Source of the DNA: Bacillota bacterium
GTDB taxonomy: Bacteria; Sysuimicrobiota; Sysuimicrobiia; Sysuimicrobiales; Segetimicrobiaceae
NCBI GenBank assembly: GCA_021324255.1
Contig: JAJPJL010000022.1
Coordinates: 1 to 41,646 of the forward strand
DNA: 41,646 nucleotides
Direction of reading: 5' to 3'
The notes below the pieces were generated by a model, which worked only from the letters and a program-made list of their open reading frames with translations, was not told the DNA's origin and did not search any database. Within the stretch, counting starts at the first letter, position 1. Every line of letters starts with the position of its first letter. A program made the position numbers and the translations under genes. Positions 18,531-23,578 of this stretch are shown piece after piece.

Positions 18531-18601
18531 GTAGCCACTTATAGCGGGTTTGTGGCCGCGCATGGATCGGATTCGGTGCCCGGGCGGGTGAGTTGATCCG
18601 T

Positions 18602-19075
18602 ATGGACGATAAGGAAACGATTCTAACCCCCGAAGGTCTGCGCAGGCTGGAGGAGGAGCTCGACCATCTCAAGACCGTCCGGCGTAAGCAGGTGGCGGAG
18701 CGCATCAGGCAAGCGAAAGAGTTCGGCGATCTCTCGGAAAATTCAGAGTACGAAGACGCCAAGAACGAGCAGGCGTTCATCGAGGGCCGGATCCTGATGC
18801 TGGAAGGCATGCTGCGCAGCGTCAAGGTCATCGACAACCATGATGTCCGCTCGGACGTCGTGACGATCGGGAGCACCGTCAAGCTGACCGACGAGAGCGG
18901 AGAGGACCTGACCTATACGATCGTGGGATCGGCCGAGGCCGATCCCGCCCGCAACAAGATCAGTAACGAGTCGCCGGTGGGCCGGGCATTGCTCGGCAAG
19001 CGCAAGGGACAGGTCGTGACCGTGCAGGCTCCGGCGGGCGTGACGCGGTACACGGTCAGAGCCATCAAAGGCTAA
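18602..19075 (+). CDS. greA: transcription elongation factor GreA
   Basis: 157 residues, the standard length. The N-terminal coiled-coil starts [22 protein letters not shown] and its tip carries the acidic pair in [14 protein letters not shown], which enters the polymerase secondary channel and stimulates cleavage of backtracked RNA. The C-terminal FKBP-like domain has [24 protein letters not shown] and a final [13 protein letters not shown] 18602 is used; a TTG at 18593 is in frame but unlikely. It has its own strong promoter and structured leader, and a 541-nt gap separates it from clpC. Confidence 0.95.
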
Positions 19076-19616: not shown

Positions 19617-21059
19617 ATGTTTGAACGATTCACCGAGCGTGCGCGCCGTGTCATCATCCTCGCTCAGGAGGAGGCCAAGCGGCTCAACCACAGCGCGGTC
19701 GGTACGGAGCATATCCTCCTCGGCATCATTCGCGAGGGCGAGGGCGTGGCCAGCAAGGTCCTCGAGTCCCTCAATATCAATCCTGACCGGGTGCGCGCCG
19801 AGATCGAGAGCGCCATCGGGCGGGGTGAGCGGACGCCGTATGAGGAAGTCGCGTTCACGCCCCGGGCCAAGAAGGTGCTGGAGCTGGCGCTGGACGAGGC
19901 CCGGCGGCTCGGCCACAACTACATCGGGACCGAGCATCTGCTCCTGGGTCTCATTCGCGAGGGCGAGGGTGTGGCCGCCCGCGTGCTCGAGGCCATGGGG
20001 GCCGACCTGGAGCGGGTTCGCTCGCAGGTCGTGTACCTCCTGGGGGAGGAGGGGACCGCGTCGTACACCAAGCAGGCGAGCAAGACCCCGACGCTCGACG
20101 AGTTCGGTCGAGATCTCACGAAGCTGGCCCGCGAAAACAAGCTCGATCCGGTGATCGGGCGTGAACGCGAGATCGAGCGCGTCATCCAAGTGCTCTCGCG
20201 GCGGACGAAGAACAATCCGGCGCTGATCGGCGAGCCGGGCGTCGGCAAGACCGCGATCACGGAAGGCCTGGCGCAGCGCATCGTCCGCGGCGACGTGCCC
20301 GAGGTGCTCAGGACGAAGCGGGTCGTCCAGCTCGATCTGGCGGCCCTGGTCGCCGGCACCAAGTACCGGGGCGAGTTCGAAGAGCGGATGAAGAAGGTCA
20401 TGGAGGAGATCCGCAAGGCCCAGGGCGAGGTGATCCTGTTCGTCGACGAGTTGCACACCCTGGTGGGCGCCGGTGCGGCGGAGGGCGCGATCGACGCGAG
20501 CAACATCCTCAAGCCGTCGCTGGCGCGCGGCGAATTGCAGTGCATCGGCGCCACGACGCTCGACGAGTACCGCAAGTACGTGGAGCGGGATGCCGCCCTG
20601 GAGCGCCGGTTTGCGCCGATTCTCGTGGCGGAACCGGCCGTGGAACAGAGCATCGAGATCCTGCGGGGCCTGCGGGAGCGGTATGAGGCGCATCACGGCG
20701 TGAAGATCAGCGACGAGGCGCTCGTCGCCGCGGCGACGCTGGCGGACAAGTACATCTCGGACCGGTTCCTGCCGGACAAGGCCATCGATTTGATGGATGA
20801 GGCGGCGAGCAAGATCCGGCTCCAGGCGAGCTTCCTGCCGCAGGAGGTGCGGCAGGCGCTCGAAAAGGCCGACCGCGTGCGCCGCGAGAAGGAAGAGGCG
20901 ATCAAGGGGCAGGATTTCGAAAAGGCCGCCGCGCTGCGCGACAAGGAGAAGGTGCTCCGCCAGAAGCTGGAAGAGCTCGAGAGCTCGTGGAAGACGGAGA
21001 AGGGGCGCGACATCACCACGGTCACCGCCGACGACATCGCCGACATCGTGTCCAGCTAG
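19617..21059 (+). CDS. clpC: ClpC ATPase, N-terminal part (ends at an in-frame TAG)
   Basis: 480 residues. Two Clp-N repeats (about 3-70 and 78-145; [22 protein letters not shown] and its echo [21 protein letters not shown]) precede the first AAA+ module with Walker A GEPGVGKT (205-212) and Walker B FVDELH (275-280). The UVR-type coiled middle segment is at 424-454 ([13 protein letters not shown]). The frame stops at TAG 21057-21059, after DIADIVSS. ClpC proteins continue there with WTGIPV, and here TGIPV follows directly in the same frame. If stopped, the product has the adaptor-binding N domain, AAA1 and the middle domain but no AAA2 and no ClpP-binding part. Start: ATG with GGAGG 11 nt upstream. 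Confidence 0.88.
21057..21059 (+). other. clpC: in-frame TAG replacing the conserved Trp codon of clpC
   Basis: The reading is GTG TCC AGC TAG ACC GGC ATT CCG GTG. In ClpC, ClpB and ClpA this place is (W)TGIP(V), so TAG stands where TGG is expected, a single G-to-A change. The frame is kept on both sides and total length with the stop is 821 codons, normal for ClpC. TAG is the natural stop of several other genes in the window. Confidence 0.9.
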
Positions 21060-21071
21060 ACCGGCATTCCG

Positions 21072-22082
21072 GTGATGCGCCTCGTGGAGGAGGAGACGGA
21101 GAAGCTCCTGCGCATGGAGGACTCCCTCCACAAGCGGATCGTCGGGCAGGAAGAGGCCGTGCGCGCGATCTCGCGGGCTGTCCGCCGCGCGCGGGCGGGG
21201 CTCAAGGACGCCCGGCGGCCGATCGGTTCCTTCATCTTTCTGGGCCCGACCGGGGTCGGCAAGACGGAGCTGACCCTGGCGCTCGCGGAGTTCCTGTTCG
21301 GGGACGAGAGCGCGGTCATCCGCATCGACATGTCCGAGTACACGGAGCGCCACACGGTGTCCCGGCTGGTCGGCGCGCCCCCAGGCTACGTGGGCTACGA
21401 GGAGGGCGGGCAGCTCACCGAGCAGGTACGCCGGCGGCCGTACTCCGTCGTGCTCCTGGACGAGATCGAGAAGGCGCACCCGGAGATCTTCAACGTGCTG
21501 CTCCAGATTCTGGAGGACGGGCGGTTGACGGACGCCCAGGGGCGCACGGTGGACTTCAAGAATTGCGTCGTGATCATGACGAGCAACGTCGGCGCGCCGC
21601 AGATCCAGCGGGAGGGCAGCTTCGGGTTCCGCACCGTCGAGAACGAAGCCGCGGAGACGCAGCGCACCTACGATAGGATGAAGACCCACGTGATGGAGGA
21701 GCTGCGGCGGACCTTCCGGCCGGAGTTCCTCAACCGTGTAGACGAGATCATCGTCTTCCGGCCGCTCACGCGCGACCAGATCACGGCGATCGTGGAGATC
21801 CTGATGGAGCGCGTGCGGCGGGAGATCCGCGGGCAGGGGATGGAGCTGATCCTGACGACGGCAGCGCGAGACCTGCTGGCGCAGGAGGGGTTCGACCCGC
21901 AGTACGGGGCGCGGCCGCTGCGCCGGGCAATCCAGCGGCTGGTGGAGGACCCCCTCTCGGACGATATGCTGCGCGGGAAGTTCAGCGCCGGCGACAAGAT
22001 CGTGCTGGACGTCCGGGATGGCCAGGCCGTGTTCGAGAAGAAGCGCGAGCCGGAGCCGGTGTCCGCGGATACGGGATCGTAG
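21072..22082 (+). CDS. clpC: ClpC ATPase, C-terminal part (second AAA+ module)
   Basis: 336 residues from the GTG at 21072 (an ATG follows at 21075). It is in the same frame as the N-terminal part and begins 12 nt after its TAG. It contains a complete AAA2: linker [20 protein letters not shown], Walker A GPTGVGKT (58-65), Walker [14 protein letters not shown], sensor and arginine-finger region [12 protein letters not shown], and the C-terminal D2-small domain with [18 protein letters not shown]. No further stop or shift is seen, so decay is recent or absent. No Shine-Dalgarno stands before the GTG/ATG, and independent starts would rely on reinitiation after the TAG. The alternative is that it is made only by readthrough, or not at all. 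It ends in TAG. Confidence 0.82.
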
Positions 22083-22168: not shown

Positions 22169-23578
22169 GTGGCGAGGCGGGGAAGCGAGACCGGGCCGGT
22201 CGGGCGGGCCGTCTTCGTCTGCCAGACCTGCGGGTACGAGTCGGCGAAGTGGCTGGGGCGCTGCCCCGGCTGCGGCGGGTGGAACACGTTCGTCGAAGAA
22301 CCCGTCCCCGCGCCGTCCCGCGGCGGCGGTACGGTCGGCGGCCGTGCCGCGGCGGCGGCGCCCCCCGCGGTCGCCACCCCGATCACCGAGGTGTCCCTGG
22401 ACGAGGCTCCCCGGGTGGTCCTGGGAATCGGCGAGGTGGACCGCGTGCTCGGCGGCGGGCTGGTGCCGGGGTCGCTCGTCTTGATCGGCGGAGACCCCGG
22501 CGTCGGCAAGTCGACGCTGGCGCTCGGCATGGCGCAGCGGATGGCTCAGCACGGGCGCGTCCTGTACGTCTCCGGCGAGGAGTCGGCGCGGCAAACGAAG
22601 ATGCGCGCGAGCCGGCTGGAGGCGGATTCGCCCCGCCTCCTCGTGCTCGCGGAGACCGATCTCGCGCGCATCGCGGCGCAGATCGAGGAGACGCGGCCGG
22701 CGCTGGCCGTCATCGATTCGATTCAGACGATGTACCGGCCCGATCTCCCGAGCGCGCCGGGGAGCGTGGGGCAGATCCGCGAGTGTACCGCGGAGCTCCT
22801 CCGGCTCGCCAAGGCCGACGGCGGCCCGAGCATCGTGATCGTCGGGCATGTCACGAAGGAAGGCGCGATTGCCGGGCCCCGCGTGCTGGAGCACATGGTG
22901 GACACGGTGCTGTACTTCGAGGGCGAGCGGCATCACGCGTACCGCGTGCTGCGCGCCACGAAGAATCGCTTCGGGTCGACCAACGAGATCGGCGTGTTCG
23001 CGATGAGCGGCCGCGGGCTCGTGCCGGTGCCCGACCCCTCCGCGCTGTTCCTGGCGGAGCGCGCCGCGGACGCGCCGGGCTCGGCGGTCGTCTGTGCCCT
23101 CGAGGGAACGCGCCCGCTGCTCGTCGAGGTGCAGGCGCTCGTCACCCGCACGCCGTTCGGTATGCCGCGCCGCACGGCGTCGGGCGTGGACTACAACCGC
23201 GTGCTCTTGCTGCTCGCCGTGCTCGAAAAGCGCGCGGGCCTGCACCTCGGAGGTTGCGACGTCTACGCCAGCGTCGCCGGGGGCCTGCGGATCGACGAGC
23301 CGGCCGCCGATCTCGGGATCGCCTGCGCGGTGGCCGGCAGTCACCGCGACCGCGCCACCGCCCCCTCCACCGCGGTGGTCGGCGAGGTGGGGCTCGGCGG
23401 CGAGATCCGCGCCGTCAACCAGATCGGGCGGCGGATTGCGGAGGCTGCGAAGCTCGGCTTTCGCCGCGTGGTGCTCCCGCGCGCCAGCCTGCGCGCCCTG
23501 GAGGCGGACAGCGACGTGGCGGTCGACGCCGTCGGCGTCGACCGCATCGGCGAAGCATTGGAGGCCGTTCTCGGGTAA
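22169..23578 (+). CDS. radA: DNA repair protein RadA
   Basis: 469 residues, normal for RadA/Sms. A four-Cys zinc finger (Cys18, 21, 32, 35 in CQTCGYES...RCPGCGGW) is followed by a RecA-like ATPase with Walker A GDPGVGKS (108-115) and the RadA-specific KNRFGSTNEIGVF. The C-terminal Lon-protease-like domain (VYASVAGGLRIDEPAADLGIACA) lacks protease function in the family. RadA promotes branch migration in recombination repair. GTG 22169 follows AAGGGAG. Its position after clpC is the Firmicutes order. The next gene converges 9 nt away. Confidence 0.95.
   Translation: MARRGSETGPVGRAVFVCQTCGYESAKWLGRCPGCGGWNTFVEEPVPAPSRGGGTVGGRAAAAAPPAVATPITEVSLDEAPRVVLGIGEVDRVLGGGLVPGSLVLIGGDPGVGKSTLALGMAQRMAQHGRVLYVSGEESARQTKMRASRLEADSPRLLVLAETDLARIAAQIEETRPALAVIDSIQTMYRPDLPSAPGSVGQIRECTAELLRLAKADGGPSIVIVGHVTKEGAIAGPRVLEHMVDTVLYFEGERHHAYRVLRATKNRFGSTNEIGVFAMSGRGLVPVPDPSALFLAERAADAPGSAVVCALEGTRPLLVEVQALVTRTPFGMPRRTASGVDYNRVLLLLAVLEKRAGLHLGGCDVYASVAGGLRIDEPAADLGIACAVAGSHRDRATAPSTAVVGEVGLGGEIRAVNQIGRRIAEAAKLGFRRVVLPRASLRALEADSDVAVDAVGVDRIGEALEAVLG

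Follow-up and report, generated by a model that had tools for sequence, protein, structure and literature searches.

A lone in-frame TAG at a conserved tryptophan codon of clpC is very probably a private nonsense substitution in one draft genome

Introduction

Bacterial ClpC, an Hsp100/Clp AAA+ unfoldase with ClpP as its partner, carries its domains in the order Clp_N-AAA1-UVR/M-AAA2-D2-small. A divided form is known from plastids: in Nannochloropsis and other eustigmatophytes, clpC is present as three genes, clpN, clpC1 and clpC2 (PMC3999925, PMC4603697). A ClpC made as two polypeptides is therefore not a new kind of thing, and the suggestion of a first-pass annotation of the locus described here, that separately made ClpC rings would be new, has to be withdrawn. 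A further kind of case with which an interrupted clpC can be compared is the lone nonsense substitution of draft metagenome genomes, be it a consensus error, a strain polymorphism or a recent pseudogene, in which a single base is changed in one genome only and the gene is otherwise free of decay.

The window analyzed here, a whole stretch of 41,646 nucleotides, makes up contig 115 in the draft genome G000 (142 contigs, 3.74 Mb, 94.85% complete, 3.72% contaminated). The genus is represented in the comparison by two further genomes, G001 and G002, and the sister genome G001 served as the reference for codon changes. The clpC gene in the window has the domain order of bacterial ClpC and is 82-99% identical to the full-length clpC genes of its order, but differs from them in having one nonsense codon at Trp481. 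Its likeness to the plastid type is that AAA1 and AAA2 would again be on separate polypeptides. There, however, separate genes are fixed across a clade, whereas here one base is changed in one draft genome, the halves lie next to each other in one frame, and separate genes conserved in the lineage are not found. From the lone nonsense substitutions of draft metagenome genomes it differs in no feature that we tested: the change is private and of a single base, there is no other decay, and comparable cases occur elsewhere in the genome, in several unrelated genes and with all three stop codons.

Results

The reading frame at 19617-22082 on the plus strand is clpC. It runs over 821 codons, and its sole interruption is a TAG at codon 481 (21057-21059, plus strand). 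The context of this codon is GTGTCCAGC-TAG-ACCGGCATTCCGGTGATG, and the protein motif reads VSS-stop-TGIPV where Trp481 of VSSWTGIPV is expected. The lone stop is real in the assembly. The 5' part of the gene (19617-21059, plus strand), defined by its open reading frame, by Pfam and by comparison with G001, comprises 480 codons, ends at the TAG and encodes the N domain, AAA1 and the UVR/M domain; Pfam assigns Clp_N (repeats), AAA, AAA_lid_9 and UVR to the 480 residues before the stop. The 3' part (21060-22082, plus strand; open reading frame and Pfam) continues in the same frame with AAA2 and the D2-small domain, which Pfam matches as AAA_2 and ClpB_D2-small within the final 340 residues, and ends at the natural terminator, which is also TAG (22080-22082). 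All ClpC domains are thus present, yet not in the one open frame of a functional bacterial ClpC. The frame, the Pfam domains and the TGG of the orthologues described below bear out the first-pass description of a clpC undamaged apart from a TAG at a conserved Trp, and the Pfam domains divide at the stop as it had stated, with the N, AAA1 and middle regions on one side and AAA2 on the other. The neighbors, both named by reading the translations of their open reading frames, are a greA-like gene upstream (18593-19075, plus strand) and a radA-like gene downstream (22169-23578, plus strand). Among the named genomes of the species collection, an Armatimonadetes metagenome genome (MNEU01000082.1) comes closest, with 74% identity across the AAA2 half.

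No relative shares the stop. Codon 481 is TGG, with no internal stop in the gene, in 28 of 28 order-level orthologues whose motif was read in frame, both other genus members among them; a 29th (L020) is full length, its motif string being unmatched. In the survey of the class (43 genomes, 41 of them with a strong clpC match) none shows the stop, and wherever another member has a complete clpC it is a single unbroken gene. Stops reported in the clpC genes of G031 and G034 are the ordinary terminator near codon 820, and those in G019 and G022, where the matches likewise reach the query's end, are probably the ordinary terminator too. There is no second clpC in the G000 genome. TGG in all sister genomes together with the lack of a second clpC is the combination that, according to the first-pass annotation, would mark the stop as an error or a private mutation.

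Comparison with G001 shows both halves of clpC to be without decay and points to purifying selection on each. In the first half (480 codons), 82 codons have changed synonymously and none non-synonymously; in the second the counts are 53 and 9, at a dS of about 0.25-0.27. When polarized on the family, the changes are divided between both lineages and fall mostly in variable columns; among the columns that are at least 90% conserved, V518I is the only residue specific to G000. From this pattern the substitution, if real, would be recent. The constraint is mostly older than the mutation, however, and therefore does not show that the interrupted gene is still functional.

A TAG is the kind of stop to be expected here. 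Few codons other than TGG become a stop through a single G-to-A change. In clpC, 222 single-base changes could create a stop, and 170 of them yield TAG; with transitions alone it is 28 of 36, and across this GC-rich genome about 64% of such changes. The position is more striking: only 7 of the 222 are located 15 codons or less from the AAA1/AAA2 joint. This is nevertheless a modest coincidence, and one noticed after the fact.

The clpC stop also has company. A tblastn comparison of 1.05 Mb of G000 with 0.71 Mb of G001, together with a codon-usage scan of 1.29 Mb of G000 for stops with coding-like codons on both sides in one frame, brought out three further genes in which a lone stop breaks a conserved frame that is open throughout the rest. 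A DapA-like gene (L185 about 14873, G000:C10 about 74873; also L273; minus strand) has TAG for AAG at a Lys that is kept in five relatives in the motif YFKEASG, and that, going by the family, is presumably the Schiff-base (catalytic) lysine. A gene for a periplasmic binding protein (L139 about 6520, G000:C15; also L279; minus strand) has TAA for CAA, the residue being Gln in G001 and G002 and His in other relatives, and a fused ABC ATPase gene (L130:11325, G000:C6; also L287; plus strand) has TGA for TGC, a Cys in all five relatives. Each of these stops is one base off the codon of G001, and the relatives are intact. The lone-stop background of G000 thus extends to at least four genes and all three stop codons, and clpC is not special among its genes. 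Because the scan is insensitive, the true number is probably higher.

Same-frame gene junctions returned by the codon-usage scan were set aside by eye, and the same scan in 0.71 Mb of G001 gave four candidates, all judged by eye to be such junctions. Many in-frame stops from the tblastn comparison were discarded as probably due to wrong-frame open reading frames in GC-rich DNA. Four lone stops in 1.29 Mb of G000 versus none in 0.71 Mb of G001 corresponds to about 0.17 by simple proportion; this is not significant, so an elevated error rate in G000 is not proven. When the two genomes were compared for frameshifts, two candidate splits turned up in G001 and none in G000. Nonsense changes make up 2.5% of substitutions, and four cases with an assumed coding fraction near 0.85 imply a rough and probably low rate of about 1.5e-4 per base, which could lie within the supply of draft consensus errors or segregating alleles.

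Discussion

The in-frame TAG codons of clpC and of the DapA-like gene, both conserved genes, might suggest that this organism decodes TAG as an amino acid, but the residues replaced differ (Trp and Lys), and lone TAA and TGA stops occur likewise. TAG is moreover a major terminator, ending 230 of the 623 called genes that have a stop (about 37%), RF1 is intact, and none of the 45 tRNA genes, all typed in a genome about 95% complete that may lack a tRNA gene, has a CTA anticodon; the tRNA-Trp has its normal CCA. These counts already contradict a reassignment, which we consider next to impossible. Global recoding of TAG, which the first-pass annotation had also dismissed, is excluded by the tRNA set, by RF1, by terminator use and by the mixture of residues and stops, and the suppressor tRNA that it had thought worth looking for is absent from the 45. 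We also rejected pyrrolysine as the residue at the TAG that replaces Lys in the DapA-like gene, PylS being absent (match of 22.8 bits versus a cut-off of 178). Readthrough or suppression of UAG to give full-length ClpC would fit the continued constraint on two halves in one frame, but most of that constraint predates the mutation. The tRNA set, RF1, the PylS score and the share of genes ended by TAG argue against it as well, as do an ordinary RNA fold 3' of the stop (z -0.74, no better than shuffles) and the conservation of the stop in no relative. Above all, the lone stops replace four different residues and include all three stop codons. A reassigned codon is thereby excluded, and programmed readthrough, or any device specific to clpC, becomes unlikely. 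We therefore regard readthrough as very improbable here.

The location of the stop at a domain joint, with start codons 13-16 bases beyond it, and the split clpC of eustigmatophyte plastids (PMC3999925, PMC4603697) make it tempting to imagine a two-ring ClpC assembled from two products of the gene, one with N-AAA1-M and the other with AAA2, the latter begun anew at GTG 21072 or ATG 21075. However, no ribosome-binding site is visible by eye upstream of either start, the joint shows no shortage of synonymous changes, and in the intact relatives the GTG-ATG pair is just part of the coding sequence. The stop is also found in one genome only, and other genes carry similar lone stops. The chance of such a restart seems to us very small, and it would be far-fetched to see in this strain a first step toward a bacterial parallel to the divided plastid gene, with two polypeptides forming a working unfoldase.

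Among the three options of the first-pass annotation, then, error or recent loss is favored by the TGG of the sister genomes, the lack of a second clpC and the other lone stops, while we found nothing to support readthrough or two subunits. The clpC TAG is very probably a lone TGG-to-TAG substitution private to one draft genome, be it an error, a minor-strain allele or a recent mutation. We infer that a consensus error or a minor-strain allele fixed by metagenome assembly has somewhat better than an even chance of being the source; a private nonsense mutation of very recent date, by which the sampled strain would have lost active ClpC, is possible but less likely. A stop at a suggestive domain joint of a draft genome thus needs to be weighed against the background of lone stops in that same genome.

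Were the stop real, translation would end after the AAA1/M part, the AAA2 ring would not be made, and ClpXP and ClpB would be expected to take over the load. ClpX, ClpP and ClpB are intact in the genome, so a loss of ClpC is conceivable. A stop both real and stable would mean the loss or splitting of ClpC where the lineage otherwise has it nearly universally. Elsewhere in the comparison set, the relative G006 has, besides a full clpC, two partial clpC matches with 92% and 88% identity (G006:C43:8882-10816 and G006:C24:4348-5697), which are possibly strain or contaminant fragments, or paralogues.
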